Source: Elusimicrobiota bacterium
GTDB lineage: Bacteria; Elusimicrobiota; Endomicrobiia; Endomicrobiales; Endomicrobiaceae
Direction: 5' to 3'
DNA: 64,000 nucleotides
Assembly: GCA_017528425.1 (NCBI GenBank)
Contig: JAFXOV010000021.1
Coordinates: 1-64,000 of the forward strand
Shown: positions 30,784 through 51,460 of the stretch, in pieces
Layout: the number at the start of each line of letters is the position of its first letter
How positions within the stretch are numbered: the stretch's first letter is position 1
Program-made: the position numbers and the translations under genes
Notes under the pieces: generated by a model
Database searches by the model: none
What the model was told of the DNA's origin: nothing
Seen by the model: the letters and a program-made list of their open reading frames with translations, nothing else

Positions 30784-31623
30784 TTAATTCGTTCTCATAA
30801 TATAACACAATGCATAATATGGTGGCATGTTGTTATGTGGCTGTGAACCACCGGTTTCTAATATGGAAAAAGGGGTGTTACCAGATCCAGATATATTTAT
30901 ATCGCCACCACCACTTCCACCGCCACCGCCACTGAAGGTTCTATTTATTTCATGTTTATGTTTCGGCATTTCATTTATTGTTAATGTATGTTCTTCTTCT
31001 CCGCCGGTTGCATCTACCGCATATCTGTTCCCCGCCCCTAAAACAAATCTGTTTCTTAAGTCCGGTGTACCATTTGTCCCGTCGCATAAAACCCATCCTG
31101 AAGGTATATCATTTACGGAACCGGACCAAATTATTATTGCTCCTTTAGGCACCATAAAATATTCCGTAGTTCCTATAATTTCTTTTGCACCGTTAGAATC
31201 CACAACAAACTTTTTATCATTACCTACGGTTACAGAAAATTCGGAATTTTCCGTAACGGTTGCAGATTCGGTTGTATTTGAATGTAATGAATATGGAACA
31301 GCCGTAAGCTTTTCTCTCGGTTCCAATTTTTTGTTCTCTATTTCAATTTCAAGATAACAGTCTTTTTGCCTCCAATCTATATCGGGATTTAAAACTACGG
31401 AAAAGACCCCGCTTGAAACCACAACGGATTTATTTCCCGATTCCCATTTTGCTGTTCCGCCGACAAGTTGATTATAAATTTTAAAATTCATAATTTTTGT
31501 AGCATTAACTTCGGTTCTATATTCTTTAAGTTTTCCGTTGTATCTTATTTCGTTAGGAACATCCGCAACAGCCAACTGAGCAACAAAAATAAAAGATATC
31601 ACAATTAAAAATTTCTTTAACAT
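30784..31623 (-). CDS. secreted tail-collar / microcystin-dependent-like protein
   Basis: The 279-aa protein has a signal peptide (MLKKFLIVISFIFVAQLAVA), an N-terminal region common in Elusimicrobia-type surface proteins (EIRYNGKLKEYRTEVNA ... REKLTAVPYSLHS), and a C-terminal phage Tail_Collar-like domain. The latter shows MVPKGAIIIWSGS, IPSGWVLCDGTNGTPDLRNRFVLGAG, MPKHKHE, a Gly-rich loop and HNNMPPYYALCYIMRTN. Unlike phage fibres it is exported and has no tail genes nearby, so a surface fibre or adhesin role is likely. GGAG precedes the ATG. Its stop nearly abuts the start of the broken sulfatase gene. Confidence 0.82.
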   Translation of the reverse strand: MLKKFLIVISFIFVAQLAVADVPNEIRYNGKLKEYRTEVNATKIMNFKIYNQLVGGTAKWESGNKSVVVSSGVFSVVLNPDIDWRQKDCYLEIEIENKKLEPREKLTAVPYSLHSNTTESATVTENSEFSVTVGNDKKFVVDSNGAKEIIGTTEYFMVPKGAIIIWSGSVNDIPSGWVLCDGTNGTPDLRNRFVLGAGNRYAVDATGGEEEHTLTINEMPKHKHEINRTFSGGGGGSGGGDINISGSGNTPFSILETGGSQPHNNMPPYYALCYIMRTN

Positions 31624-34261: not shown

Positions 34262-34301
34262 AAAAAATCAACGGTTGATATTTCGGCCAACCGTTGATTT
34301 T
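34262..34301 (-). terminator. intrinsic terminator of the giant gene
   Basis: A perfect 12-bp stem (AATCAACGGTTG with CAACCGTTGATT) and a 10-nt loop are followed on the minus strand by a T6 tract. It lies 16 nt past the stop of the giant gene. Confidence 0.93.
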
Positions 34302-34316
34302 GAATTTCGTTCCAAA

Positions 34317-37300
34317 CTATGCAGCCGCCAAGATACTTCTTACTGTTTGTGCGGAAATATCTAATTGTTTTGTAACTACCAATTTATCTCTCAAGCTATC
34401 ATCCAACAATATGTTAACATTCATAAGATTTGTCTTTGCATTTTCTATCTCATCTTTAGCTTTTATTTCTTTTATTGCAGTTTTATTTGCTATTATTGTC
34501 TTTCTAACATCTTTATTTAATTCTGTTCTTATTGCATCAAACAATTGTTCAACAGTTTGATTTGTGTCCGGTCTTGCATTTAACAACTCATCTAATTTTA
34601 ATTCTGCATCCGCCATAACAAGTTGTATAGCTTTTATTCTAACATACTGTCTGTACTCTTTATATTCTTTTTTCAAGAATTTATCTCTCAATTTTACTTG
34701 ATCTTCTGTTTCAAAAGCAGACTGGCCCAAAACAAAACTGTCTACTATTTGATTTACAGCTCCTCTTATTGTACCAATTGCTTCAAAGTAGTTTCCCCCT
34801 TCAAGTTCAGTTTTTAATCTCATTTGTATTACAGGCGGTAATTGTTGATACATTTCATATAATTTAGCTTTTTCTTGTGATAATTCCTCTCCCGCCTCTA
34901 CATCTTCAATTGCATTCTGCAAATCTTTCATCATTTTTTCTAATTTTGTTGTATCTGATGTTGTTAAGATTGATTTAATTGTGCCACCTTCTCTTAAATT
35001 TTCCAATAATCTTTCTCTTACATTTTTTATCTCTTCTCCAAATTCTTTACCGAAATTATAATCACTTACCGCAGCGGTTTCTTCGGTTATTCTCTGTTCC
35101 GGACTTTTCGGCTTTAATAATTCATTCATTGTTCCGAACATATTTTTAAATATATTTGCTAATCTTTCTCTTAAATTTTCTAATCTGGTTCCTTCATTAT
35201 CGGTACATAATATATTTGCAAGGTTTCCGGTAGATAACATATTAGATAATATAGCTTCTATTTCTTCGGTACTTTTATCTTTTATTACATCTCCATATCC
35301 GATAGCATATTTTTCTGTCATTTCTGCTACTTGATCTACATTTATTATCGGTATTATTCCGTTATCGGTGTATATTCTATTAGCATCAATTCCTTTCGCA
35401 GTTGCCATATTTACATACATTTGAGTTTCTATATGTAATATCCCTTCACTATTATTTGCCGCTAATTCTTCTAATTTGCTTAAGTCTCCTCTTTCTGCTT
35501 CGTCAAGAATTGCTCCATCCAATTTAAAATCATCACTTTCAAAAGCGTCTCTTATTTCTTCAAAGTTTCCTCTTAGTATAAACCTAAAACCATCCGCTCT
35601 TAATCCAGCAATTTCAGATCCATATTTTTCTAACTGACTTGCATTTATTATTATTGTTGTTGCAAATTGTTTGTTACATTTTGATGCAAGATTTCGACCG
35701 ATCTTTTTCATACCCGACAAATCTAAACTTACTTCTACTTCCGCTCTTTGCATCCCGTTTATAGCTGCATTTGCAATTCTGTCTTGAATATTTGCTAATG
35801 ATTGTTTTACTTTTTCATCATCTGAACCAGGAATTATATCACCTCTTTCCGCAAAAGATATTACTTGTTCATTCGAAAACTCTAAATTTTTTCTTCCTTC
35901 ACTATATGCTGCCGCTATCAACTCTTTTATTTTTTCTCTACTTAAATCTATACCCTGTTTTGAATATACAAGTAATTCATTGGCACTTGAATCAAAAGTC
36001 ATTCTGATTTTAGCTTGTTCGTTTATTAATAATCCGCCTCTTTGTCTTGCTTCTTGTTCCGTTATTATTCTTAATTTAACTATATTTATCCCTGCACTTT
36101 TTGCTCTTTCTCTCAATGCTTCATCAACATCTACATCTACTATTATATTCTTTCCTTTCATATCCATAGCTTTATTGGTATCGAATATTTCGCCTATTGT
36201 ATCCATTATCAGCTGTATAGGATTTACACTTGCTTTTACTAAATCAATTAAATATTGATATTGCATTTCCTCTGTTGTACTTTCCTGCTGAACACTTACA
36301 TTACTATTTTCTACAGGCATAACTATTCCCATCTCAATAAATATATCGACAAGTTCTGAGCCTGAAATAAAATCATGAGTTTTTCCTACAATTTCTTTTT
36401 GAATATCTTTTGATGCAGAACTATCAGTTAATTTAACCAAATTTAACAGAAACTCTAAATTACTTTTATCATATGGATCTATCATATTTATAATCATTTT
36501 TTCGAACGGTAATATAATGCTATCTGTTTTTAAAATTTCAAATAAGCTATGAACATACTTTTTTAATTCATCTTTATAATCCGATGATAACGAAGGATTT
36601 CCTTCTATTAATGCTTCTATCATTTCTTCCTTAGTATTAGTATTAATTTCTTTATTTTCTATATTTAACACCAACTTAGCATTATTATTAGAAAAATTTA
36701 TTTCAATTTCTTTATCGCTTAATTTTTTAATATTTGATATTATTAACCCTTCACCAATAGGAATATCATTCGCAGAATATACATAAGGTTTCTTATTTAA
36801 TCTATTTTTTTCTATTCTTATTATCCTTAATCTACCATCAACTATACCTATCATTACAATTGTTTTTTCTGTTCCTCTACTTCCGATTAAAAACTTTGCA
36901 TCGAGGCCACTATCTTTTTTAATTTCCATTATTTTCTGTCTTGTAACAACATCAAATTTATAAAGTTCATCATAAAACATATCATTATAAAATATAAATC
37001 TATTATTCTCGAAACCTATACAATATTTTATTCCTACAGAATTTGTGCCAGCATCTTTAGTTCCCAATATATTATTGTGTTCGTCTACTCTTACTTTAAA
37101 GAACAACTCTCCTTCTTTAATTTTAGAATCCAACTCTGAAAATTGTACTCTTTTAACTGTTGTAGCATATTTGATTTCTGCTGTATAATTATCTTCATAT
37201 TTTTTGCTATCTATTACAAAAAAAGTTTCTATTCTTTTTTCATTCATATTAATAACTACCACATAGATTTTGTTATTAATGTTTTTTATATATAAAGTAT

Positions 37301-40300
37301 TACTTTCTCTTTCCGAACATAAATCCCAATCATTTATTATAGTACCAATTAAATTTTCTGATGAGCTATCCATTAAAAAATCCAATGTTATTGCAGAATT
37401 AAAAGCTACATTTGCGTCTTCATACCTATCTATATATTCTTCATTACCATTCATCAATATAGAATGACCATCACATATATGCAACCAATCATCAAAAGAA
37501 AACTTGATTCCCGTAGGAAAATTTTGATCAGATTCATTGTTTTTAGTTATACGTATAGTTTTATCTGTCGTAAAATCATCACCAAACTTTTTCTTCCAAG
37601 ACATATATGCATATATAACGGCATACATTTTCATTTGATTTTCTCTTTCTCTTTGTTTATCTTCATCAGAAACATCAGCAAACACATAATCATGAATTAC
37701 ACGACTATCTTCTGCCGTAAAACTGCCATCAAGTTTGAACAATTTAGTCAAAGAAGCCAAAACATCTTCCGGTAAATCTTTGGTTCCATTAAATAACTCT
37801 TCTAAAACATTACTCTGATTTGAATCTGTAACAGAAAAATGTTTATTAGTTTTTTTAGAGATTTTTGCAGATATTATTTCAATATCAGCATTTGACAAAG
37901 AAACATTCACTCTTTCTAACATTCTTTTTATTTTATCTGATACTGACACTTCATTTTCTTGCGTTGTTTGTTCAACCTGCGGAACTGTTTGTTGTACTTG
38001 TTTAAACAAGGATATTATCTCTTGTCTAATGCTTTGTTGTACACTTTCGTCTCTCAACTTTTGAATTTTTCTTTGTTTAGATAATTCTATTGCACCCAAA
38101 TTTTCAAGAATCTGTTCTATTTCATATGATTTATATTTGCTTCTTATTAAAAAATTTGTTAATTCATAAAAACTATCTCCTGCAACATCTCTCATTAAAT
38201 TAAAGAATGCTTTTTCGTCATTCGCGCTTACAGACGAAGCAAGCCATCTTTTTTTTGTCTCATAAAATACAGGCGCAAAGTGTTGAGCATCAATTCCTAA
38301 ATATTCTAATTGTTCTTGTAAATCTTTTTGTTTTAATCCAAAATCATAAATTGGTTGAATTAGAGCTTGATTCCGCCCTGTATCAAGAAGTCTTAACAAT
38401 TCAGTTTGCCATAAGTCTATTCTTGCTTCCGAAACGCCACTCATTCTTTTTATATTTTCTATAACAGAATCTATACTAAAATCTATACCGGAATTTTCTA
38501 TAATAGAATCTATAATCGAAGATTCTATCTCTTCTGGCAAAACAGTTTCACCTTTAATACCATTTTTCTTAGCAAAATCTTTAGCTACTATACTAATAAC
38601 TTCTCCCAAAATAAAATATTTTTGTTCGGGAGTGAATTCTTGTTGAGTCGTTTGTGTTTCTTGCTGTTGCTGTTGAGTTTGTTCAACCTGCGGAGCTGTT
38701 TGTTGTGATTCCGGTTGTGAAACAGTAGTTTTTCTTTCTCTTTTTTCCCTTTCTTCTAATAGTCTTTGTGTATTATCATTTTGGGAAACACTTATTGAGT
38801 AAAAACTCGTATCTCCATTTCCTATTTCCTTTTGTATTAAACCAGAGACTATACCATCGGCTGCATCTTTTCGAATATTAGACAGGCCGACATGCATACC
38901 ACTTATTTCCCCAATTGCGGCAAAGCTTAATATCTCTTCAGAGGTTTTCTGCCCTCTATTAAGTGTATTATATACTGAAAAACCTGGCGTTACACTTTTT
39001 TTATTACATCTTAAATATATTGGTTTTGAAAGATCTCCTAAATTACCATGGACAACAGCATTTTTTATAAACTCACGCATTATTATATTTCCATAAAATT
39101 GAACGCCGGAATTTCCTGAAAAAGAATAAAACCATGTTTTATCCAATAGACTGACTAATTGCCTTCCGAATTGGAAATATAATGCAATTTTCTGCATTTT
39201 TGTTAAATTTTCCACATTATAAGCTCTTGAAAAAGGATATATTATCAATAATGTATCTTCTTCTCCGTTTTTCATTAATTTTTTTATTTTCTTTTCATTT
39301 ATATCTTTACCATCTGTATCTACACCTGCATCCAAGAAAACAGTTTCAATATTTTCATCTTTAACACTTATACCTTCTTCTGTCTGCAAAGCTTTTTTTA
39401 ACGTTTCCAATTGTGTTCTAATTTCAGGATCTTTAGGTTTTTCTCTACCATATTCATCTTTTGTTACTTCTATAGATTCACCACTTAAATCTGATACTAT
39501 TCTAGGCATTTCCTCTTGCTTAACAGCACTTACAAGAGTTCCTGCATCGTTACTTTGAATAGTAAGATTATGTCTGGAAACTTTTATTTTCAAATCAAGA
39601 AAATCTTCTATACTTTCGATTGTTGTATATCGTGATGATTCCAATGTAAAAGCATCCTCGCCTTCAGACTCCACATAAATGACTAATTTTCTACCTTTTA
39701 TACCAATATCTATATAATCTTTTGTCTCTTCATCCTCATTTGTTAAACCTGCTAATTTTGCCGTTACAGAATAAATTTTTCCGTTTTTCTCTATCAAAAT
39801 CGTAGCCGGTTTTTCTTCATCATTTCTAAATACTACTTTATCTTTTGATTTTGATTTAACTTGCTCTTGGTGTATTTTCTGGACACCAAGATTCCACATA
39901 AGGTGGGTTATGAATTCTGTAGCAAAAAGGGTAGGTATTCCAAGAAATCCTGCAAAAGGACTAAGGGTTACAGCCAATACAGTACCTGCTCCTACACCCA
40001 GCCCAATACTTAATGCTCTTATTACCCATATAGCAATTATCTGTGCCATAGTAGGATTTTCATGTTCTTCAATAAAACTTTCAATTTCTATATTTTTTCC
40101 AAACACAGTTGTATTTATTGGAAATATTTTCCAAAAATCCAACATCTCATACCATACACCTAATACTGTTCCTTTGAAACTGGACCTATCTATACCTTTA
40201 TCTTCTAAATATTTTTTTGTCTTTTCTGTTTGTAATTCTACATAGTAAGATTTACCTGAATGCCTGTTCCTAATTACATCCGCAAGCCTACTAAGAAAAT

Positions 40301-43300
40301 TACTCGGTAATATCGTAGCAACAGATAATAATCTCTTTTGTTCTTTGCTTATTTTTGGTATATTTTTTTGAGTCTGTACTGTATTACTTTCAACTTCTTT
40401 CGCTTCTGTAATAAATTCTTCAAACAAAACTTGTACCTCATCATCAACCATAAATATTGTGTGGTTAGAACTTTCTATTTCAGCATAAAAAATATCTTTA
40501 AGTGTTATTTCCGTTGCATCATCATGTTCTTCAAGATAACTGTTAATTGCATATTCCAAATTACCGGTACCGGAAGACAAAGAATAACCGAAAAGCATTT
40601 CTTTACCCGCTTCGGTGACAATCTGTGGACAAAAGTTTATATTTCTTCTTGACAATTCTTTCTTTATCATTTCAGCTGTCACATAAGAATGACAACAAGA
40701 CAAATCTATAGTTATGTGTTCTATCGTATTTTTTATATACTCATCACCTTCCCCTTTCATATTTTTTATTGCTTTTTCTATGGAATCTGCAATTTTTTTA
40801 TCTACTCTAACGGAACCAAACTCTGAATATGCCCATATTCCATCTGCACCATGTCCGTTCAATACTAACAATAAATTTTCACTTTCTCCTTCCTTATATC
40901 TAAAATTAGGAATTTCATTAAAAAAGGCATCTACTTTTCTTCTTAGTTTAAATTCTCTTATTGGACTAAAATTAGAAAGAGATTTTTGCATATCCGTAAG
41001 TTCTTCACGTTTATATTCATCTCCGGCAATATAAATTCCAGCAAATAATTGAAGAACTGTCGTGACAACAGGGAAAACCATCGGCAAATATAAGAAACTA
41101 AATGCAGGGAAAATTAAGGATAGAGCGAATAGTCCTAAAACTCCTATTGCGACAGGTATTCCAAGTTTATCTAATTTTTCAAAAAATTTGTTAAGTTTTT
41201 TTCTTCCGGCATAAAAATCTTCTTCACCTGTTTCCTCATAGACAGCCAACATCTGTTCAATTTCTTTTTCAATTTCCGCTTCATTAATTTCCTCTCCGTT
41301 CTCTTTCATTTCATTAGTAAGTATAACTCTTAACATGTCTCTATAAGCTTTGGATGTAAATCTGTAACCTTCAGTCCCCATTCTTATATCAGCTCTTTCA
41401 TTGTGATTGGCAATCGCTACTCTTGTATATTTGCCAATAAACTTTTTTTCGCCGGACTTTTCAAGAATTCGCGACATTATATCTATTGCTTTTGGTATAA
41501 GAGTTTCTAAATTCTCATTAACAAACTCTTCCGTAAGCCCCGTTGCTGAAATAAATCTACACATTTTTATGGCAGTTCTGTACTGTATTGAAACAGATAA
41601 GTCTTCGTATTCTTTCTGAAATTCGGGAGAAAGAAAAATTTTCAATGCCAACGCATTGTTTTCTAAAGAAAAATGGTAAATGGTTTTTTTTGACAAATCG
41701 TTCAACAAATCAATTAATTTGGAATAACTGCTATCATCCATTTCTATATCTGTAGAAAGCAGTTCCAAAAATAGCATTGCAGAAGCTATATCTGTTACTC
41801 TAAAGTTTTTTTCTTTTAAAAAATTTAAAGTATCCTTATTAATTTCATTAAGTGAACGAATTGTTGATGATAATTCATTGTCATAATATCCACTTGCATT
41901 TAAAAGAGGCTCTATATTTTTTGCCAAATATTTAACTGTTTCTTCATCAAAATCTTTCGTTAAAGGGAGAAGTTTTCTTGCTAATTTTTTCCTCATACTC
42001 CAACTAACCATTTCTCCGCCGGAAAATTCACTAACAAAAATATCTCCGTATTTATATCCGGAAATTATAGATTTTGCACGCATTTTTTTTATATTCTTTA
42101 GAGAAAAACTACGTCTCTTTAAGAAATCCATTTCATCTATCTCGCCTTTCAAGTATTTTTTCAAATTATTTATTATATACCTGTTTGTTTTTTTTGCGGT
42201 AAAAGCTCCCTGTAACATGTATCCAATTTCTCTACCTGAAAAATCTTCATTTTCAATATCAATATTTTCTTCTTTTACAAATTCATCCAAGATTTTACAT
42301 ATTTTATATATTCTATTAACCAAATCCTTATCATCTTCTAAAATGTTGATATCTGAATCTGCAAACCAAAGATCTCCAAAGGAAAATTTTGCAGATCCGT
42401 TGGTACGAAACCACTTCATCAATATTCTTGCTCTATCTATATTTTCTTGAAGCTGATTAATATTTATTTTCTCTTCAAAATAAGGTTTAAATATACTTAT
42501 TGCAATATTAGGACGCATTCCATTAGTTATGAAATAATATAAATCATTGTGAATAAAATTTATATCCAAATCTCTTTTAGATACTTTTTTGAGTTCCATC
42601 AATACTTTAAGGTAATCTCTAAGATAATATTTATGAATATTTGATAATTGTTCTTTTATATCATCGGATAACTTTCCGGTTAATTTTTCTATTTCTTCTA
42701 TTACTTTATCAATATCCTCATAGTCAATTTCTATGTTCTGCGTTTGTTGAGCCATATATTGTTCTTGAGATGATAATACTGTTGATATTGTTTCCGGTAA
42801 TTTATCACTTGAAAAATATTTATCAGAAATTGTTTTCTTTCCTATATCCAAAAAATCATATGCCCCAACAACAAATTCAACAGAATCGGCAATAACTTTT
42901 TTCATCTTTTCAAGTTCACTTTTACTGTATTTTTTAAAGTATTCCATTGCTCTAAGTTCATCGACATCTTTAGTCATAATATCATAAATTACCAATATTT
43001 CTCGTTTTGTTATCGCATTTCCTTGTGCCGTTATTGCATTATCATTTATTTTGTTCTGCATCGCCATTATATCCTTGGGGAAGAACATTAAATTTCTCGG
43101 CAAAAAGAAATAAACTTTTTTCCCTGTTCGATTACAATCCAACAAAACTTCGGGAATGTATTCTTCAGGTACATAGCCATTGGCAGATTTAGATTTTCCG
43201 GAATCAAAAAGAAGTTTTCTGGCACCATCAAACCAATCACATAAATTCATTCCATATTCAGAATCAATAAAAGCTCTTAAGAAATCATATCTTTCTTCTG

Positions 43301-46300
43301 TCTTTCCATCCGGCATTGTTTTACTGAAAAAAGAATCATCTTGTATTGTTTGTATAACTGAACGTAACCCAAAAACATACCCATTATATCTATTAAAACG
43401 TTTATCTTCATTATCATATTTTTTTCTTGTTACATTTGCTTTTCTTCCCTCTGTCCATGCATCATATACAGTTTTGTATTTCACCAAATTGCTAAATTGT
43501 TCAAGCTTGCTATATTCTTCACTCGTTTTGTATTCTTCGTATTCTTTTTTATATGCATCATACCACTCAGTAACTTTATTGTATATATCCGTAAAACTTA
43601 TAAGACCGCAAAAAACGTTAAGATATTCATACCCTTCACTTGCCTTATATTCTTCATACCATTTATCCAAATTATTTTTTTCAGTTCTTTCTTCGGGATT
43701 TAAAAACGTTTTACTCATCAACTCATGAAGTCTTTGAAGATTTTCATACTCTTTACTTTCCTTGTATTTCTCGTACCATTCTATTTCTTTATCATTAAAA
43801 TGAGATTTATCCATAAGTTCATCAAGAAGTTCAAGTTTATCGTATAGTTCTTTTTTATTATATTCTCCATACCACAACATAGCCGTATGTAATAAAGATG
43901 CATCATCTGCTTTCCAAGAATCCCATACTTCTTTTACTTCTTCATCTAAATTCAAAAATTTTAGAATACCTTTTAATTCCGGATACTTTACATATGAAAT
44001 ATCTATATCATAAAAATAATGAAGTATATTTGTGACCGTCAATGTTGTTATTATGGCAGGAATTACAACCGCTATTGTGAGTGGATTGATTAAGCTTATT
44101 ATGGCAGGTACAATTCCAAAACCTATCCCTATCGATAGAGCCCTTATTCTCCAAACAACAGCTGTTGCAATTTTCCTTTGTAAAGGAGTTTGAGGGCGGT
44201 GTGCCGCAACAAAATTCGGCATCCAAAAAGCAAATGTTTCAATATTTACACCTATTGCTTTACCTAATCTGGTGTTTTTAAAATTTTCCCCGGCTTTGTC
44301 CTTATATATCCTTCTTATTATTTCTGTGTTACCAAGTCTGTCCAAGAAAGCTTTTGTTCTATCAAGAAGGAGTTCCATATATATCATATTCCCTTTCTTC
44401 GCTAACCATCTTTGTACAAGAACAGTGCGTTCATGTTCTTCGTATCTATCAAGATATTCTGTTATCTCCATTTCTTTCGTACCATAAGTAATTTCATCCG
44501 AAGAAAGGTCTAACATCTCAAAAACTTTCTGCCTTAAATTATCAAACAAATTTTCCATCTCTTCATTCGTTACAGCAAAGACAGTATAATTTGCAGAGGC
44601 TCTTTCTGCATTATGAAAATCAGCCAAAGTTAATCCTTTTTCTTTTCGCTCTTCAAATTCGCTTTTGTGTGTCAAAATATATTCTATTAAAGATACTTCC
44701 TTGTTACTCAATGTTACATTTGAGCTTCCGCTAACAAGATCTGTCGAACTAATTGAAACAGGAGAACTCTTCATATCTATAAATTTGCCTTTCAAACTTT
44801 CATAACCGGCATCAGTTACTATATTAGGAAAAGATGGTTTTAGATTTTCTTCTTCTAATCGTTTTTTCAATTGTTCTATTATATTTATTGAAGAAAAATA
44901 TGACCAACAAGTAGCCAAATCCAATGTTATTTCACTTAAATCCAAATTCACATCTTTTCTCTTTGCATCTACTAAAGCTTCAACTATATCTTCTACCTTT
45001 AAATTGTGTTCACCTGTAGATAAATGTGTTGGTTGTCCATGCCCGGAATACATTGCATACATATTTTTTAATCCGTATCTGGCTTTATTTTCAGGATAAA
45101 ATCTAATAGTATCCAACCATCCATTTATGGTAACTTTATCATCAGAATAATCTCCCGTACATTTAAAATAATCTCTTTTAGGATTAATTCCCAACAATTT
45201 AAAAATTGATTCCCAACCTTCATTAGTACATTCTTCTTCCATACCTAAAAGGCAATAAAAGCCTGTTTCATTCGTTACGGTATTTCGTGATTGTAGTTGT
45301 TCTACTCCTTTATAATATATATCCATCAACATTGGGAGTATTTTATCTATTTGTTGTTCAGTTAAATCAGCAGCCTTATCACCTATTGTGTAATAAAGCA
45401 ATCTTCCAATCTTCATTGCATCTTCATAATCCGTCATTTTGGTTTTTGTTCGTTTATTATCTTGAAAATATTTATTCAACAATATTTTAAAAGTTAAATC
45501 ATTTGCCTCTGTAGATATATCATCAATTCTTCTCTCGGAAAGTTCCCTTGCTAACGGCAATAAAATTTTATTAAGATTTTCGTCTGAAACATTCAAGTCT
45601 CTTGCAATACGTACAAAAGAGCCTATTATCGCCGATTTATTAACCCTATTACTACTAATAGGTGCTCGTTGAAAAATATCATATAACTCTTCCCATCTTG
45701 TTCTAGCCGGTGTTCTATCCGTCTGTTTTGCTGCTATCTTAGAACTTTTTTTAGCTTTAACTCTCGTTTTCTTACCATCTTTTGTTGTTTCAAATACACT
45801 TTCGTCTTGAGAACTTTCATCATATACGCTCTCTAATTTTACATTTTCTTGTATGGTTAAATTTCCATCCTCATCTATTACCGCAAAAACCCCTCTTTTA
45901 TCACTTTTAGTATCAAATATCTCAATCATAACCAGATTTTTGCCATCTTCCGATTTTACATTTGAAATAACATCTCCGTAGTATAAATCATTAAAAGAAA
46001 CATCTGATCTGAATTTTCTAAAAAACTCTGTTACTCTATCCTGCTCTTCTAAAATTTTGCTAAATCCAAAAACCCTCATTCCTTGATCGAACGGCATAAC
46101 ATATAAATTTCCATCAACATAAAAAGAAAAGCTATTGTCCGTAGGTTCCAACATCAGATATCCATTTCTTGTCGCTTCATATTCGTCTTGTAAACGACTC
46201 ATCTCTTTTTTTTCTACTTTATCTCTGTTTATATGGTGTGTCCACTCATGAACAATAGTTGATAATACTTGTCTGTCAAGATTAAATGTTTCATCTTCAT

Positions 46301-49300
46301 TATAATTAACGGGAATTATTATAAAATCTTTTCTCTGTCCGTTAATTTCAACCGTATGCGCACAAGCACTTCCCAAGAAATATTCATCATCAGAATCTGT
46401 CTTCATAAAAATTACTTCAGGAACATTATCATAATCACTGGGCAAATTTAAAAAAGACAATGCTTTACCAATATCACTTCTAAGAAAATCTCTAACTCCT
46501 TGAGAACTTGAAACGGTAAGAGATGTTTCCAAATATTTTTTTGACTCCGGTGCAAACATTGTATTATTTCTTTTAAAACTGTTATAAAGTTGTTCAAAAG
46601 CCTCAGGGGAAGATAAAATTTGTTCCATATTTGGAGTTGAATATTGTATTTCAGTTGAAGCTTGTTCCACTTGAGTTATAGCTTCTTGCGGTGCTATAGA
46701 TTCTGCCGTTGAATGTTGTAAATATCCGGGAATAATAGCGGATAACAATAATGTCCCAATTAAAAATATGCCCGCAATTATAAGCCTTATTTTTCCTTGC
46801 TTTCCTTTTTGTTCTTGTTGCGTTGCAGGTGTTTCATCTTGTTTTTTTTCTTCGGGTTGTTCCACACTTGCTTGTTGATCCGCTTGTTTCTGAGAAGCTT
46901 GTTCTTCTGTTATTTCCGTTTGCTCCTTTTCTATCTGTTGTTGTTCCTGTCCTTCAAAACTGAAATATTCTTCCAATAGTTTATCTATTTGTTTTTCATG
47001 TTGTCTATAAAATTCCGGATTTTTCTTTTGAGGATATATTCTCATAAATTCAGCTATTGACATTGCATACGGTTTACCATCTATTCCTTTAACAACAATA
47101 TCATATGGTAATACAGTATCCCTACCTTCGTCCGTATCAATTATAATCATCGAGCCTTCTGCTTTTTTCGACTCTTCTTTTTCCTTCACTTCTCCAAAAG
47201 AAACTGTTACACTAACTTCTTTTTTTGTAGCATTGAATATTTGTCTTACTCTTTTATCCTCACTTACTTCCGTTCTATAAATTCTTTCAAACTTTTCCCT
47301 TTTCATAAAACTTACAGATCCGGTTGCACTTATAACAAACATAGGATTTACGGAGATATTATCTGTTCTTGCTGAAAGAGTTGAATTATCCGGTTCCACA
47401 TCATATATTCTTATACTAAAGTGGTTATCTTTATCATATTTAGATTTCAAAACATAATATCTGTTACCTTGTTCATCATATTTTTCTTCTCCTTTTTTAA
47501 CGCCTTCTAAATATCCGTGATCTTTTGCATATTCTAAATCAAATGCCTGCACATCAACTTCCGCACTTGTTACCGAACCTCTCCAAATTAAATCATCCGC
47601 CGTTAATGCCGGTCTTATAAAATTTTTTATTATTTCAAATATTTTTTTCGCTGCATTTTTCCCTTTTTCTCTTAATTGCTCATTAACCTTTTCTTTCTCA
47701 GCTGTCATATCTACATCCGCATCTTCCATATCAATAACATGAATTCTTAACTTTTCTAAATCATCTCTTCCTTTTACACCTTTTTCAAAGAATATACCCA
47801 ATAATTCTTTAACTTCCGGAGATAATTCTTTAGATCTTAATAAATCATATAGTTCTCTTTTTGATGCACTAACTTTACTATCATCAAAAATTACATCAAT
47901 TACTTCTCCTTTTTTATTTCTAACAACATCTTTAATTACACCTTCTTCTATTAAATCAACCAAGAATAAAAGATATTCAACTGAATTATTTATCGCTCTT
48001 TTTTCTGTTATTGCAGGAGATTGATTATCTCGTGCCAATATTCTGCTATTTATTAAAAATATCTCATTTTTTTCACGATATGCATTTAATAAATCATTTT
48101 CTATAGATACTGCTCTACCACCGACAATAATTGCAAAATTCGGAACATTTTTTATTTTTGCAACAGCCTCGGAATAAACTTTCCCGTTTTCGGCAACAAA
48201 CTTAAATGCATTCATAAACTCCATTAAATTTGTTCCGTTTTCCAACAAATCCTGTTTATCCATTTTTCCAAGTAAATCTTTTATATCTTCAAATGTTTGC
48301 TTATTCGGAAATTCGTCAGGCTCGACATACTCTAAGTAATCAGTTGCTGTAACATAAACCATTAAAGCATCATACATTTGAGACAAGACTGTTGCTGTAG
48401 CATCTATGCTACCTTTACTTGCTGTCGGGCTCGACAATATACCAAATCTTTCCTTTCCAAGAGTCTTTGATATTTCTTCCATCAAAGGTGCTAATACAGA
48501 TATTGTTATCCTGTCATAATCACCTTGCGGTGCAGAATAACCTACCAAAGAGAAGAACATTTCAACTTTGGCAAATGCTTTTTCTATTTCTCTTCTTACT
48601 TGTTCAGAAGATTTTATTTCCGAAATATTCCACAATTGTTTTAATAAATCTAACTGCTCTTTTAGTTCTTTTTCACTACATTCTTCTAATTCTTTATCAT
48701 CATATTTAGATAGTGCTTCTAATATTCGTTTATACTTATCACTCCTGCTTTTTAATAACTGTATATGATGTTCGGATAATTTAGGCAATGCTTTTATTTG
48801 ATTAATTATCTTGCTTTTTATTTCCTGTTCTCTTTTTTGTGCACGTTGTCTTTTGTTCTTTTCTCGTTTTTGTATACGTTGTCTTTTGGATTCTATTTTG
48901 TTTTTTGTTTTTCTCAATGCTCTTCTGATACCTACTGCAGCCTTTTGCACAACTGTACCACTCTCCATCGTACGCATTTCTTCTTCGGCATTTTTTAATA
49001 TTTCCTTTATGGAATCGACTTGCCCATATTTTAAAGCGTCTCTTAATTCATCCAAATCAACAAATTTCGCCAAATCAACACCGACTTTTTCACCACTTAT
49101 TTTCTCTAAAAATTTCACAAAATCATTATCATCGGATTCCAAGAATTTGCTCTCTTCAATATTTCTCTTTATATTTCTCATCTGTTCGGATATTTCTTGG
49201 GCTGTTTTTTCTTCTTCAGCCGTTAAACTCATTGTATCTATCTGGGCTACACTATTCGGAAAAAGTTCTTTTGCTATATCAACACCGAAAGCCATAACTG

Positions 49301-50927
49301 CAGCTTTTACTCTAATTTCTTCGGAATATGCGGAAAACGGTAACGTTGCCAATGTTTGGAAAGAAATTTTACTTTGTTCTTTTGCTATTTCATAATATGT
49401 TTCTTCTGCGAGTTTTACTCCGTCTGTAACATTCGGAGTTATAACGATATAACTTACTCCGTGATTTTTTAATATCTCTGTTACCGTTTGAGAATGGAAA
49501 CCTCCGGTTATTACAACATCTACTTCTTTTACACCTTTCATATTGTCTATTATTTTGTTTACTTCACCTTTGGCTTCCACTTCGTTTTCAAGTTTACCCA
49601 ACACACTTTCTTTCGTAAACATATTGTCGGTAAAATATATGTTTCTGTCGGTATTTATTTTATAGAATTTATCAGCTTCGGCTATATATTCATCCAACAT
49701 GCTTAATACTTTATTATCTACGTACTTATTCCATAATTGTCTAAATGTATCTATATTTTCTTTATAATATTCATAGTCGCTTGCCGTAATTTTACTGCTT
49801 ACATAATCTCTTAAATATCTTTCAAAATTTGTTAAAAAAACGACTTCCATTTGTACTTTCGTTTCGGAAAATTTCGTATTTATTTCTTCAGTCAATCTTT
49901 TTTCTTCGTCTATTAATTCCAACGGATTTATTTTTTGACTGAATTCTATATAACCGAAATAGTTATCCAAATTAGGGAAATTTACCGTTAAATCCAATCC
50001 CAATTCTCTGCTTATTCTTACGATATATCCGTACAATTTATCTATCTTTGAAAAATTTTCTGTATTATCAACCAACATTTGGTATGCGGAATTTGCTAAA
50101 TTTTCTCTCAACAACAAAATTAAGTTTTGTAATTCGTTGGTTATTTTCGAATAATCTAAAGTTTTCTGCATTTCCAAAAGAGACATATAAGTAAATGTGT
50201 TTTCGTATTTACTTAAATCTATTCCCAATTTATCTATATGTTTGGATAACAAAGCATAATATTTCTGAGGTGTTATTGTTCCTTCTCTGTAATTTTTTGA
50301 AAGTTCTTCTAATTTATACTGCCTTTTTGTGTAATATTGTTTTTTTACTTCGGCCAAAGATTCGCTAATTGCATTTAATATTACATTTATCTTTTCTTGA
50401 TTTTCTACTATCTCACCGAATCTCTTTAAATTTTCCAAGTACGGAATTTTTTCTTCCAATCCGCTTATTATTTCCGTCTTCCCGCTTACTAAGCTGTAAT
50501 ATTCCGCACCTGTCAATCTTCCCGTATCCAACATCTTTTTCAAAATTTCAACTTTCTTGGATGGTTCTATTCTGTCACTTATCCATTTCGTACTTAGTTG
50601 TCCGTATACACCTTCCAAATAAACATTTTTTACTCCGAAACTTTTATCGAATATTTCTATTATGTTACTGATGTTTTCTTGAACTTTCGGATGGCAATGC
50701 AAATCTTGTATGTTTATTATTACTCTGTCGGTTCCTGCATAATGTGCACTTGTTATTTGACCATAGTTATAGGGCAACATGAAATCTTTAAATATTTGTT
50801 TATATTTTATTGTGGCCTCTTCGTTTGTCATGGCATTGGCAACCGTAGGCGCAACAACAAAAGACCAAACCAAACAAATTGTAGTTATGATACTTATAAA
50901 CTTTTTAAATTTCATTAAAATTTTCAT
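34317..50927 (-). CDS. giant 5,536-aa multidomain membrane protein (caspase-like, zincin, GHKL modules)
   Basis: One uninterrupted frame. In order: signal peptide 1-32 (cut after TVANA); ChaN/TraB-like domain about 35-560 (QDLHCHP 74-80, GGFH 475-478); a basic coiled region near 690-760; a Q/E-rich linker and transmembrane span about 1377-1400; zincin motif HEWTHH 1560-1565; caspase/C11-like domain with His1963 (SGHG) and Cys2007 (ATCWSY); hairpin 2262-2308; W-Y repeats 2346-2493; hairpin 3255-3300; a second caspase-like domain with His3359 (NGHG) and Cys3412 (SCCHSY); hairpin 3632-3680; GHKL ATPase-like domain about 3900-4060 (N-box EFIKNAVVHG, GMHVGL at 4010); Q-rich linkers near 4085 and 4315; long helical C-terminus. 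The ATG at 50927 has GGAGG; a longer frame enters the upstream hairpin. Domain names are motif-based; the overall function is unknown. Confidence 0.9.
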   Translation of the reverse strand: MKILMKFKKFISIITTICLVWSFVVAPTVANAMTNEEATIKYKQIFKDFMLPYNYGQITSAHYAGTDRVIINIQDLHCHPKVQENISNIIEIFDKSFGVKNVYLEGVYGQLSTKWISDRIEPSKKVEILKKMLDTGRLTGAEYYSLVSGKTEIISGLEEKIPYLENLKRFGEIVENQEKINVILNAISESLAEVKKQYYTKRQYKLEELSKNYREGTITPQKYYALLSKHIDKLGIDLSKYENTFTYMSLLEMQKTLDYSKITNELQNLILLLRENLANSAYQMLVDNTENFSKIDKLYGYIVRISRELGLDLTVNFPNLDNYFGYIEFSQKINPLELIDEEKRLTEEINTKFSETKVQMEVVFLTNFERYLRDYVSSKITASDYEYYKENIDTFRQLWNKYVDNKVLSMLDEYIAEADKFYKINTDRNIYFTDNMFTKESVLGKLENEVEAKGEVNKIIDNMKGVKEVDVVITGGFHSQTVTEILKNHGVSYIVITPNVTDGVKLAEETYYEIAKEQSKISFQTLATLPFSAYSEEIRVKAAVMAFGVDIAKELFPNSVAQIDTMSLTAEEEKTAQEISEQMRNIKRNIEESKFLESDDNDFVKFLEKISGEKVGVDLAKFVDLDELRDALKYGQVDSIKEILKNAEEEMRTMESGTVVQKAAVGIRRALRKTKNKIESKRQRIQKREKNKRQRAQKREQEIKSKIINQIKALPKLSEHHIQLLKSRSDKYKRILEALSKYDDKELEECSEKELKEQLDLLKQLWNISEIKSSEQVRREIEKAFAKVEMFFSLVGYSAPQGDYDRITISVLAPLMEEISKTLGKERFGILSSPTASKGSIDATATVLSQMYDALMVYVTATDYLEYVEPDEFPNKQTFEDIKDLLGKMDKQDLLENGTNLMEFMNAFKFVAENGKVYSEAVAKIKNVPNFAIIVGGRAVSIENDLLNAYREKNEIFLINSRILARDNQSPAITEKRAINNSVEYLLFLVDLIEEGVIKDVVRNKKGEVIDVIFDDSKVSASKRELYDLLRSKELSPEVKELLGIFFEKGVKGRDDLEKLRIHVIDMEDADVDMTAEKEKVNEQLREKGKNAAKKIFEIIKNFIRPALTADDLIWRGSVTSAEVDVQAFDLEYAKDHGYLEGVKKGEEKYDEQGNRYYVLKSKYDKDNHFSIRIYDVEPDNSTLSARTDNISVNPMFVISATGSVSFMKREKFERIYRTEVSEDKRVRQIFNATKKEVSVTVSFGEVKEKEESKKAEGSMIIIDTDEGRDTVLPYDIVVKGIDGKPYAMSIAEFMRIYPQKKNPEFYRQHEKQIDKLLEEYFSFEGQEQQQIEKEQTEITEEQASQKQADQQASVEQPEEKKQDETPATQQEQKGKQGKIRLIIAGIFLIGTLLLSAIIPGYLQHSTAESIAPQEAITQVEQASTEIQYSTPNMEQILSSPEAFEQLYNSFKRNNTMFAPESKKYLETSLTVSSSQGVRDFLRSDIGKALSFLNLPSDYDNVPEVIFMKTDSDDEYFLGSACAHTVEINGQRKDFIIIPVNYNEDETFNLDRQVLSTIVHEWTHHINRDKVEKKEMSRLQDEYEATRNGYLMLEPTDNSFSFYVDGNLYVMPFDQGMRVFGFSKILEEQDRVTEFFRKFRSDVSFNDLYYGDVISNVKSEDGKNLVMIEIFDTKSDKRGVFAVIDEDGNLTIQENVKLESVYDESSQDESVFETTKDGKKTRVKAKKSSKIAAKQTDRTPARTRWEELYDIFQRAPISSNRVNKSAIIGSFVRIARDLNVSDENLNKILLPLARELSERRIDDISTEANDLTFKILLNKYFQDNKRTKTKMTDYEDAMKIGRLLYYTIGDKAADLTEQQIDKILPMLMDIYYKGVEQLQSRNTVTNETGFYCLLGMEEECTNEGWESIFKLLGINPKRDYFKCTGDYSDDKVTINGWLDTIRFYPENKARYGLKNMYAMYSGHGQPTHLSTGEHNLKVEDIVEALVDAKRKDVNLDLSEITLDLATCWSYFSSINIIEQLKKRLEEENLKPSFPNIVTDAGYESLKGKFIDMKSSPVSISSTDLVSGSSNVTLSNKEVSLIEYILTHKSEFEERKEKGLTLADFHNAERASANYTVFAVTNEEMENLFDNLRQKVFEMLDLSSDEITYGTKEMEITEYLDRYEEHERTVLVQRWLAKKGNMIYMELLLDRTKAFLDRLGNTEIIRRIYKDKAGENFKNTRLGKAIGVNIETFAFWMPNFVAAHRPQTPLQRKIATAVVWRIRALSIGIGFGIVPAIISLINPLTIAVVIPAIITTLTVTNILHYFYDIDISYVKYPELKGILKFLNLDEEVKEVWDSWKADDASLLHTAMLWYGEYNKKELYDKLELLDELMDKSHFNDKEIEWYEKYKESKEYENLQRLHELMSKTFLNPEERTEKNNLDKWYEEYKASEGYEYLNVFCGLISFTDIYNKVTEWYDAYKKEYEEYKTSEEYSKLEQFSNLVKYKTVYDAWTEGRKANVTRKKYDNEDKRFNRYNGYVFGLRSVIQTIQDDSFFSKTMPDGKTEERYDFLRAFIDSEYGMNLCDWFDGARKLLFDSGKSKSANGYVPEEYIPEVLLDCNRTGKKVYFFLPRNLMFFPKDIMAMQNKINDNAITAQGNAITKREILVIYDIMTKDVDELRAMEYFKKYSKSELEKMKKVIADSVEFVVGAYDFLDIGKKTISDKYFSSDKLPETISTVLSSQEQYMAQQTQNIEIDYEDIDKVIEEIEKLTGKLSDDIKEQLSNIHKYYLRDYLKVLMELKKVSKRDLDINFIHNDLYYFITNGMRPNIAISIFKPYFEEKININQLQENIDRARILMKWFRTNGSAKFSFGDLWFADSDINILEDDKDLVNRIYKICKILDEFVKEENIDIENEDFSGREIGYMLQGAFTAKKTNRYIINNLKKYLKGEIDEMDFLKRRSFSLKNIKKMRAKSIISGYKYGDIFVSEFSGGEMVSWSMRKKLARKLLPLTKDFDEETVKYLAKNIEPLLNASGYYDNELSSTIRSLNEINKDTLNFLKEKNFRVTDIASAMLFLELLSTDIEMDDSSYSKLIDLLNDLSKKTIYHFSLENNALALKIFLSPEFQKEYEDLSVSIQYRTAIKMCRFISATGLTEEFVNENLETLIPKAIDIMSRILEKSGEKKFIGKYTRVAIANHNERADIRMGTEGYRFTSKAYRDMLRVILTNEMKENGEEINEAEIEKEIEQMLAVYEETGEEDFYAGRKKLNKFFEKLDKLGIPVAIGVLGLFALSLIFPAFSFLYLPMVFPVVTTVLQLFAGIYIAGDEYKREELTDMQKSLSNFSPIREFKLRRKVDAFFNEIPNFRYKEGESENLLLVLNGHGADGIWAYSEFGSVRVDKKIADSIEKAIKNMKGEGDEYIKNTIEHITIDLSCCHSYVTAEMIKKELSRRNINFCPQIVTEAGKEMLFGYSLSSGTGNLEYAINSYLEEHDDATEITLKDIFYAEIESSNHTIFMVDDEVQVLFEEFITEAKEVESNTVQTQKNIPKISKEQKRLLSVATILPSNFLSRLADVIRNRHSGKSYYVELQTEKTKKYLEDKGIDRSSFKGTVLGVWYEMLDFWKIFPINTTVFGKNIEIESFIEEHENPTMAQIIAIWVIRALSIGLGVGAGTVLAVTLSPFAGFLGIPTLFATEFITHLMWNLGVQKIHQEQVKSKSKDKVVFRNDEEKPATILIEKNGKIYSVTAKLAGLTNEDEETKDYIDIGIKGRKLVIYVESEGEDAFTLESSRYTTIESIEDFLDLKIKVSRHNLTIQSNDAGTLVSAVKQEEMPRIVSDLSGESIEVTKDEYGREKPKDPEIRTQLETLKKALQTEEGISVKDENIETVFLDAGVDTDGKDINEKKIKKLMKNGEEDTLLIIYPFSRAYNVENLTKMQKIALYFQFGRQLVSLLDKTWFYSFSGNSGVQFYGNIIMREFIKNAVVHGNLGDLSKPIYLRCNKKSVTPGFSVYNTLNRGQKTSEEILSFAAIGEISGMHVGLSNIRKDAADGIVSGLIQKEIGNGDTSFYSISVSQNDNTQRLLEEREKRERKTTVSQPESQQTAPQVEQTQQQQQETQTTQQEFTPEQKYFILGEVISIVAKDFAKKNGIKGETVLPEEIESSIIDSIIENSGIDFSIDSVIENIKRMSGVSEARIDLWQTELLRLLDTGRNQALIQPIYDFGLKQKDLQEQLEYLGIDAQHFAPVFYETKKRWLASSVSANDEKAFFNLMRDVAGDSFYELTNFLIRSKYKSYEIEQILENLGAIELSKQRKIQKLRDESVQQSIRQEIISLFKQVQQTVPQVEQTTQENEVSVSDKIKRMLERVNVSLSNADIEIISAKISKKTNKHFSVTDSNQSNVLEELFNGTKDLPEDVLASLTKLFKLDGSFTAEDSRVIHDYVFADVSDEDKQRERENQMKMYAVIYAYMSWKKKFGDDFTTDKTIRITKNNESDQNFPTGIKFSFDDWLHICDGHSILMNGNEEYIDRYEDANVAFNSAITLDFLMDSSSENLIGTIINDWDLCSERESNTLYIKNINNKIYVVVINMNEKRIETFFVIDSKKYEDNYTAEIKYATTVKRVQFSELDSKIKEGELFFKVRVDEHNNILGTKDAGTNSVGIKYCIGFENNRFIFYNDMFYDELYKFDVVTRQKIMEIKKDSGLDAKFLIGSRGTEKTIVMIGIVDGRLRIIRIEKNRLNKKPYVYSANDIPIGEGLIISNIKKLSDKEIEINFSNNNAKLVLNIENKEINTNTKEEMIEALIEGNPSLSSDYKDELKKYVHSLFEILKTDSIILPFEKMIINMIDPYDKSNLEFLLNLVKLTDSSASKDIQKEIVGKTHDFISGSELVDIFIEMGIVMPVENSNVSVQQESTTEEMQYQYLIDLVKASVNPIQLIMDTIGEIFDTNKAMDMKGKNIIVDVDVDEALRERAKSAGINIVKLRIITEQEARQRGGLLINEQAKIRMTFDSSANELLVYSKQGIDLSREKIKELIAAAYSEGRKNLEFSNEQVISFAERGDIIPGSDDEKVKQSLANIQDRIANAAINGMQRAEVEVSLDLSGMKKIGRNLASKCNKQFATTIIINASQLEKYGSEIAGLRADGFRFILRGNFEEIRDAFESDDFKLDGAILDEAERGDLSKLEELAANNSEGILHIETQMYVNMATAKGIDANRIYTDNGIIPIINVDQVAEMTEKYAIGYGDVIKDKSTEEIEAILSNMLSTGNLANILCTDNEGTRLENLRERLANIFKNMFGTMNELLKPKSPEQRITEETAAVSDYNFGKEFGEEIKNVRERLLENLREGGTIKSILTTSDTTKLEKMMKDLQNAIEDVEAGEELSQEKAKLYEMYQQLPPVIQMRLKTELEGGNYFEAIGTIRGAVNQIVDSFVLGQSAFETEDQVKLRDKFLKKEYKEYRQYVRIKAIQLVMADAELKLDELLNARPDTNQTVEQLFDAIRTELNKDVRKTIIANKTAIKEIKAKDEIENAKTNLMNVNILLDDSLRDKLVVTKQLDISAQTVRSILAAA
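43451..43892 (-). repeat. degenerate W-Y-E-x-Y protein repeats inside the giant gene
   Basis: Residues about 2346-2493 hold four to five imperfect units of roughly 32-38 residues. Each begins W-Y-[GED]-x-Y-[NK] (WYGEYNKKELY, WYEKYKESKEY, WYEEYKASEGY, WYDAYKKEY) followed by a Leu-rich helix. The charged, helical character suggests a spacer or rod. The block sits immediately after the first membrane hairpin. Confidence 0.75.
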
Positions 50928-50938
50928 ATTGCCTCCAA

Positions 50939-50974
50939 TAAAAAAAGCTTGTATTGTTTTTATACAATACAAGC
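50939..50974 (-). terminator. terminator-like hairpin directly before the giant gene's ribosome site
   Basis: Minus-strand stem GCTTGTATTG/CAATACAAGC (10 bp, 8-nt loop) is followed by a T7 tract and then, within 3 nt, the GGAGG of the giant gene. The hairpin contains the last codons and stop of the 166-aa gene. It is a classical intrinsic terminator shape placed where it would limit transcription into the giant gene. Confidence 0.8.
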
Positions 50975-51460
50975 CCTTTCTATATACATTTTATTATAAT
51001 CAACTGATATAGATCTCGGTAAAACATTAAATAATATTTTGGTTAATAACAGCAGAAAGACACTTAATAACCAAAATGGTATTTTCAACGGATATTCTAT
51101 TACCTTGCTCAAATAATTTGTTATGAATAAAATATCGTTGTTAACATTGTTAAAATTAAGGCCGGAACTTAATATAGTTTTATACACTATCGATGGAATC
51201 AGGAATTCGGTTATTTTATTAAAATCTTTTTTATCGGTATCTTTCTTACTGTTTTGTTGTTTGTTCCCGTTCATCTTTTGTGAAAGCATATTTGCTAATA
51301 TATCATCGGAAAAAGTTTTCACGGCAAAAAAATGTTCAACTATGCTCGACTTAACAAGATTAGAACATTTGATGTTTGTTATAGTCAAAGACATAAAATT
51401 GAACATCAAAAAAAGCATAACAAAAAGAGAGAATGCTTTATTTTTTAAAGACACTTTCAT
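50960..51460 (-). CDS. 166-aa membrane protein preceding the giant gene, unknown
   Basis: The protein has an N-terminal signal-anchor-like segment (residues 9-29, FSLFVMLFLMFNFMSLTITNI), a polar middle (Lys/Asn/Gln-rich near 65-80) and a second strong hydrophobic segment near 128-150 (IPFWLLSVFLLLLTKILF). No family is recognised. It has a TTGAAA-17-TATAAT promoter only 6 nt from the ATG and no Shine-Dalgarno, so it is probably read from a leaderless mRNA. Its end lies in the terminator-like hairpin before the giant gene, making it a likely operon partner or accessory of that protein. Confidence 0.65.
   Translation of the reverse strand: MKVSLKNKAFSLFVMLFLMFNFMSLTITNIKCSNLVKSSIVEHFFAVKTFSDDILANMLSQKMNGNKQQNSKKDTDKKDFNKITEFLIPSIVYKTILSSGLNFNNVNNDILFITNYLSKVIEYPLKIPFWLLSVFLLLLTKILFNVLPRSISVDYNKMYIERACIV

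Follow-up and report, generated by a model that had tools for sequence, protein, structure and literature searches.

The giant gene in the stretch of DNA analysed here (the window, 64,000 nucleotides of a contig from a rumen bacterium of the Elusimicrobiota) encodes one member of a protein family with 18 loci in its own genome. Common to these loci are a signal peptide and an N-terminal head domain of about 510 residues, and nearly all of the proteins end exactly in a short C-terminal tag. The giant is thus not an isolated protein; head and tag had gone unnoticed in the initial annotation. The bodies between head and tag are exchangeable cassettes, some of them apparently captured from neighbouring housekeeping genes. 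We regard as evenly balanced the proposal that the giants are signal-peptide-bearing envelope proteins with a common head, a sorting or processing tag and variable enzymatic cargo.

Giant proteins are known as a class in this phylum. The giant ORFs of Omnitrophota and Elusimicrobiota were described as very large, largely unannotated frames of uncultured bacteria with transmembrane helices (PMC10066038; PMC11573180), and huge proteins have already been counted as enriched in Elusimicrobiota (West-Roberts et al. 2023, as summarized in PMC12057145). These sources (PMC10066038; PMC11573180; and, at second hand via PMC12057145, West-Roberts et al. 2023) describe the known giants as having little conservation or no known function. 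They have been counted, yet they are unexplained because their bodies offer few recognisable domains. In contrast to the giants reported so far, the proteins described here are united as one family by the head domain, the tag and defined cassettes. Neither the head-domain family nor the tag was found described in the open-access papers searched. With a common head and an exact C-terminus, many giants that look unrelated can be treated as one family that carries a testable address label, which is a first handle on what giant proteins do for such bacteria. In the small genome studied here the family takes up about 9%. Should the tag prove to be a sorting signal, it would imply a new route of secretion or display.

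The giant gene

The frame lies on the minus strand, from an ATG at 50927 to a stop codon at 34317-34319, and encodes 5,536 amino acids. A GGAGG ribosome site is found 5' of the ATG at 50932-50936. An alternative TTG start would give a protein of 5,551 residues; the ATG is preferred because this TTG falls within a hairpin. The N-terminus reads as a signal peptide, with four Lys, a 15-residue hydropathy of 2.39 and an ANA/M site, and a K-rich hydrophobic start of this kind is present in all paralogs examined. A stem-loop of -18.5 kcal/mol (z -5.2) follows 3' of the stop codon. The long frame, signal peptide, good ribosome site and terminator of the initial annotation were thus all confirmed, and its motifs were found as quoted: HEWTHH (1560), SGHG (1961) with ATCWSY (2005), NGHG (3357) with SCCHSY (3410), EFIKNAVVHG (3952) and GMHVGL (4010). 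The numbers 1963/2007 and 3359/3412 given there are the positions of the His and Cys themselves. The several membrane hairpins that it had proposed were seen as hydrophobic segments at about 2260-2293, 3255-3301 and 3630-3668, in addition to a segment at 1382-1400. The features of the locus are as follows.

34317..50927, minus strand: giant gene, 5,536 aa (frame reading; purifying selection)
50936..50985, minus strand: strong hairpin and U-run directly 5' of the ribosome site (-22.7 kcal/mol, z -8.6)
50932..50936, minus strand: ribosome-binding site GGAGG (direct reading)
50832..50927, minus strand: predicted signal peptide, residues 1-32, MKILMKFKKFISIITTICLVWSFVVAPTVANA (sequence; similar start in all paralogs examined)
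49293..50828, minus strand: N-terminal head domain, residues ~34-545 (18 own-genome loci, alignment, AlphaFold2 pLDDT 87.6)
46728..46784, minus strand: single hydrophobic (transmembrane) segment, residues 1382-1400 (hydropathy 2.55, flanking charges)
45849..46598, minus strand: zincin-like domain, residues 1444-1693, HEWTH 1560, DE..A downstream (HExxH invariant in 14 homologues)
45234..45581, minus strand: helical module before C13-like domain 1, residues 1783-1898 (module HMM, 31 distinct copies)
44511..45182, minus strand: C13-like (caspase-type) domain 1, residues 1916-2139, His1963/Cys2007 (H and C invariant in 32)
44028..44408, minus strand: membrane-hairpin module 1, residues 2174-2300 (module HMM)
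41394..41735, minus strand: helical module before C13-like domain 2, residues 3065-3178 (module HMM)
41025..41165, minus strand: transmembrane hairpin, residues 3255-3301 (hydropathy)
40389..40991, minus strand: C13-like domain 2, residues 3313-3513, His3359/Cys3412 (alignment, profiles, AlphaFold2 and Foldseek)
39903..40271, minus strand: membrane-hairpin module 2, residues 3553-3675 (module HMM)
39369..39830, minus strand: beta-rich module, residues 3700-3853 (module HMM, AlphaFold2 model)
38829..39341, minus strand: GHKL-like domain, residues 3863-4033 (HATPase_c_2 in homologues, Foldseek SpoIIAB)
37011..37841, minus strand: module common to the giant and paralog C25, residues 4363-4639 (36% identity, E 1e-53)
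34320..36332, minus strand: conserved C-terminal tail domain, residues 4866-5536 (HMM, 11 distinct family members)
34320..34352, minus strand: C-terminal tag, last 11 residues, SAQTVRSILAAA-COOH (tag alignment, scan)
34262..34302, minus strand: intrinsic terminator (sequence, folding)

The hairpin and U-run at 50936-50985 are either the terminator of the upstream gene or a leader/attenuator.

The giant gene evolves under purifying selection. In comparison with the ortholog in Ca. R. ovillum, dN/dS was between 0.06 and 0.45 across the domains tested, with 0.06 in the N-domain, 0.19 in the zincin, 0.12 in C13-like domain 1 and 0.45 in the tail. A pseudogene or a random ORF was rejected on these values, all of them below 0.5. 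The low dN/dS, together with the invariance of a His/Cys dyad in 32 modules and of HExxH in 14 sequences, shows that the frame is not due to chance. In the same comparison dS was uneven along the gene (0.17 in the zincin, 0.64 in the N-domain and 0.81 in the tail), as would be expected if segments were exchanged. The orthologs within the genus have lengths of 3722, 4420, 5536 and at least 8068 aa.

The head domain

Residues 1-600 of the giant match 18 loci of its own genome, most of which head frames of 1,000-7,700 aa. Altogether the family amounts to about 64,000 aa, or 9.2% of the 2.08-Mb genome. The residues D75, H77, Q83, E105, E142, R428, G475, G476, H478 and P498 are invariant in the head domain, and its AlphaFold2 model had a pLDDT of 87.6. 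Pfam, hhalign and fold searches did not assign the domain to a known family. Pfam gave nothing above cut-off, the best being TraB with an E of 0.048 in one member; the PF01963 and PF05139 profiles recovered no head-domain locus; and hhalign against YbaP or an EreA-like protein stayed at a probability below 2%. The best globular fold match of the model was EreC (probability 0.30), and two EreA-like structures followed at 0.08, all with E above 0.1. The H, E, R and GG-F-H motifs of the head domain resemble those of the erythromycin esterase (EreA/EreC), TraB/TIKI and ChaN superfamily. However, in view of the negative profile tests we rejected an assignment of the head domain to TraB/TIKI/EreA/ChaN and consider the likeness a motif look-alike with a weak fold hint.

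The initial annotation had placed the giant beside the giant proteins of Omnitrophota. By its closest named relatives, however, the genome belongs to Candidatus Ruminimicrobiellum (Endomicrobiaceae, Elusimicrobiota) and not to Omnitrophota, and its near relatives are MAGs from sheep, goat and yak. The head domain was present in 67 of the 295 Elusimicrobiota genomes searched. Six genomes of other families had 21 to 65 matches each, with frames of up to 13,472 aa. In genus g8, which belongs to the same family and has mostly small genomes, the domain was often absent, as if it had been lost with genome reduction. Copies interrupted by internal stops also occur in this genus and in G010. A phage origin was also considered for the head domain and was rejected, as no relative was found among viral contigs.

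The C-terminal tag

Seventeen of the 18 own-genome family proteins end exactly in the tag, the exception being the 488-aa protein of C45. The tag has about ten residues with the pattern phi-xx-phi-[K/R/N..]-x-[I/M/L]-L-x-[A/S/C]-A-COOH. Leu occupies position -4 in 16 of the 17 tagged proteins and Ala is the last residue in 15. At E 0.05, the 192 residues ahead of the last eight sort the 17 proteins into 14 clusters that share no detectable homology with one another, and therefore the tag was not merely inherited with the adjoining sequence. In a pooled set with complete head-domain proteins from several genera of the order, an L.[ASC][ASG] end was found in 30 of the 34, versus 8 of 708 other closed frames, and several of these eight were fragments of the giant family.

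The occurrence of the tag in the whole genome was judged by a scan for a DNA pattern of tag plus stop codon rather than by listing protein C-termini. The scan found 31 sites, versus 16 for a reversed control pattern. Ten of the 31 close a frame of 505 aa or more, and every one of these frames belongs to the family, in one case once contigs C58 and C11 had been joined; of the remainder, twenty were inspected, and the frames that they close are no longer than 51 aa. The tag is also missing from two giants of the same genome that have the C13-like module described below but no head domain. A related family of the class ends similarly (IKRLLSAG, IKKILGAV), and more distant families have different C-termini, often QA. 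Such an end (...QA) is frequent in the distant head-domain giants L294-L307 (families f17-f23) and is possibly a second type of tag.

Conserved C-terminal sorting signals on Sec-exported and otherwise unrelated proteins are known from the T9SS CTD, LPXTG, PEP-CTERM and GlyGly-CTERM systems. Their proteins combine a signal peptide with a C-terminal signal, as the giant family does. The tag of the giants differs from these signals in that it is a bare amphipathic end of about ten residues, L-x-A/S-A-COOH, without their motifs, and in that the head domain accompanies it in each protein that carries it.

Predicted enzymatic domains of the window giant

No Pfam family was above cut-off on the giant protein itself, so alignments were built from its relatives. 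In these alignments the His of GHG and the Cys of the predicted dyad (alignment positions 64 and 108, His1963 and Cys2007 in the giant) are invariant in all 32 modules. Pfam Peptidase_C13 (PF01650) matched 10 of the 32 module homologues, with a best E of 3.1e-6. The two domains of the giant had no PF01650 match on their own, and a longer paralog frame scored 18.4 for C13 against a cut-off of 22.8. Among PDB profiles, the module matched GPI-anchor transamidase with an E of 9.7e-6, followed weakly by metacaspase and legumain. An AlphaFold2 model of residues 3290-4060 had a mean pLDDT of 74 and about 90 in both domain cores. In the fold search of this model, in which no E-value was below 0.1, the best peptidase match was a local one to caspase-8 (probability 0.91, E 0.18). 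The structure prediction and fold search proposed with the initial annotation thus gave caspase-8 and SpoIIAB as the most probable matches of this segment.

These alignments, profiles and the model support the presence of two clan-CD, C13-like cysteine-peptidase domains with a predicted catalytic function, in agreement with the two caspase-like domains that had been proposed. The GHG...C dyad and the order of the blocks are those of peptidase family C13 (legumain, GPI-anchor transamidase), which belongs to clan CD with the caspases and metacaspases. Unlike the members of that family, the predicted module of the giants is always embedded in giant frames; it was found in 14 of the 66 genomes of the order that were searched. 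We considered the module as a general reader of the tag and rejected it, because it is limited to these 14 genomes and most tagged paralogs lack it.

In 14 sequences of the zincin-like domain, the H, E and H of HExxH are invariant and a downstream D/E..A is nearly so. Weak profile matches were to M48/BepA/HtpX and M78. The HExxH pattern supports the zincin that had been suggested earlier, and the downstream acidic residue is predicted to act as a ligand.

The GHKL-type domain had been described as part of an ATP-sensing machine. Across 19 aligned sequences it keeps an N-box (E..KNA.VHGN, EFIKNAVVHGN in the giant) and, in most of them, a G2-like box (G.H.GL, GMHVGL in the giant). The G1 box DxGxG is absent and reads VYN, with a nearly invariant Asn. 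HATPase_c_2 matched 6 of the 19 homologues (best E 0.004), and the likeness to SpoIIAB was weak by sequence. Foldseek of the 3290-4060 model gave SpoIIAB with a probability of 0.77 and a TM to target of about 0.5, and RsbW and UsfX were lower. Motifs and model together support a putative degenerate SpoIIAB/RsbW-like GHKL domain. It shares the N-box, the G2-like box and the fold with the anti-sigma kinases of the SpoIIAB/RsbW type, and differs from them in that it lacks the DxGxG aspartate and adjoins a membrane hairpin inside a giant protein. The domain as such was therefore borne out by its N-box and fold, whereas ATP sensing is doubtful because the DxGxG aspartate is missing.

Cassettes and paralog cargo

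Custom HMMs showed that the cassettes (helical module, C13-like, hairpin, beta and GHKL) vary in order and number among the family. The cargo of the paralogs includes PGI plus phosphoglucomutase, two PPDK_N domains with or without PEP-utilizers, UDPGP and a LMW phosphatase, and further CBM48/amylase, an MFS transporter, HD, metallophosphatase, cytidine deaminase, ABC1 kinase and M48. The deaminase matches are to dCMP_cyt_deam and, weakly, to MafB19-deam. In the module that paralog C25 has in common with the giant, C25 has a match to PBECR3, a BECR-type nuclease, which is below cut-off (E 1.3e-4). A member of 1,025 aa (L034, G000:C19:23000-27400) pairs a head domain with a body of the MFS transporter type, and its C-terminus is still the tag (MLSCA).

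The PGI giant L022 (C18:11482-12993) is immediately preceded by a stand-alone PGI gene (G000:C18:5069-6532), and the same pairing occurs in R. ovillum and R. bubulum. The PGI giant is apparently a housekeeping gene captured into a giant. In well-studied PGI enzymes the Glu of GEPGTNGQH is the catalytic base. The diverged PGI domain of the giants keeps most motif blocks, but Thr replaces this Glu, and its activity is therefore uncertain.

In the flanking genes scanned there were no secretion genes; all were housekeeping genes (argC-like, MATE, TP methylase, GH57, RelA/SpoT), and dedicated neighbouring secretion genes were rejected on this basis. At 30784-31623 on the minus strand, the window encodes a protein that matches the phage tail collar and the baseplate Gp10 C-terminal domains below threshold.

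Possible function of the giants

In the proposal that we prefer to the others, the signal peptide would export the giant chain, and the head domain and the C-terminal tag would probably act together in its export, sorting or anchoring at the envelope. The middle would be variable cargo, swapped between genes as cassettes. In the window giant this cargo would consist of peptidases, namely a zincin and two C13-like domains, which sit among membrane hairpins and would be coupled with the degenerate GHKL domain, and we infer that proteolysis is probably regulated or displayed at the envelope on contact with other rumen cells. It is possible, although we are inclined to doubt it, that the family uses an undescribed Elusimicrobiota sorting route, in which a dedicated envelope machinery reads the tag, alone or along with the head, and thereby takes dozens of otherwise unrelated giants through export, anchoring or processing. 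If this is true, any captured enzyme, even a glycolytic one, could be displayed as cargo.

Against the preferred proposal stand the lack of secretion genes in the flanks scanned and the deviating C-termini of more distant families. The segment 1382-1400, moreover, has positive charges next to its N-side, so that this side would be cytoplasmic by the positive-inside rule, which counts against an export topology. The PGI, PGM, PPDK and UDPGP domains of the paralogs are cytoplasmic enzyme types that use phosphate or ATP and would be odd as exported cargo. Both the charges and these domains, and also the GHKL domain, would suit cytoplasmic or inner-membrane-tethered multi-enzyme scaffolds, in which the hydrophobic anchor stays uncleaved and the bodies face the cytoplasm. 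However, all paralogs examined have signal-peptide-like starts with plausible cleavage sites, the separate full-length PGI gene means that the giant is not the sole PGI of the cell, and the giant copies carry Thr for Glu, so we think scaffolds unlikely. It is also improbable, in our opinion, that the giants are weapons secreted as a polymorphic effector or toxin-like system, with head and tag as delivery signals and middles that act on protist hosts, prey or competitors. The peptidase, deaminase, M48, phosphatase and kinase-like cargo, the sub-threshold BECR-type nuclease and the rapid exchange of modules would agree with such a system, as would the ciliate association proposed for Ruminimicrobiellum (PMC11257099). 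Yet much of the cargo belongs to ordinary metabolism (PGI, PGM, PPDK, amylase, MFS transporter), and it is internal, with a C-terminus that is conserved rather than polymorphic; nor was any immunity gene noticed at the window locus.

The giants may instead be polyproteins that process themselves, the C13-like and zincin domains cutting them or their relatives into parts and the tag being removed or transamidated as by the eukaryotic C13-type transamidases. One chain holds two peptidase types, and in the profile searches the cysteine-peptidase domain came closest to a GPI-anchor transamidase. We consider this rather doubtful, since no cleavage sites were identified and the C13-like module is missing from most tagged paralogs and from most genomes of the order. 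Targets of ClpX and Tsp/Prc end in [A/S]A, as the tag does, and it could accordingly be a degradation signal (ssrA/ClpX-like or a Tsp/Prc-like C-degron) by which the amount of the costly giants is kept in check. But the Leu of the tag is at -4 and not at -3 as in the LAA of ssrA, position -3 is variable, and the conserved hydrophobic/basic pattern reaches back to -11, which makes a degron quite unlikely.

Fragmented and interrupted copies

Shared repeats showed that contig C58 and the start of contig C11 each hold half of a single giant, about 10,400 aa long, whose intact counterpart in R. ovillum is a frame of 10,563 aa that ends in KGILAAA. The repeats inside the gene break the assembly at these contig ends (L021 in C58, L227 in C11), and for this reason the lengths of giant genes in MAGs are probably underestimated. 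The second-largest giant of the genome (a 7,667-aa frame; G000:C4:23456-25369) has an in-frame TAA inside its head domain, which may be the mark of a pseudogene, an assembly error or recoding. Head-domain copies with internal stops were also seen at G064:C20:16880-18739 (5 stops) and G010:C96:9711-11630 (10 stops).
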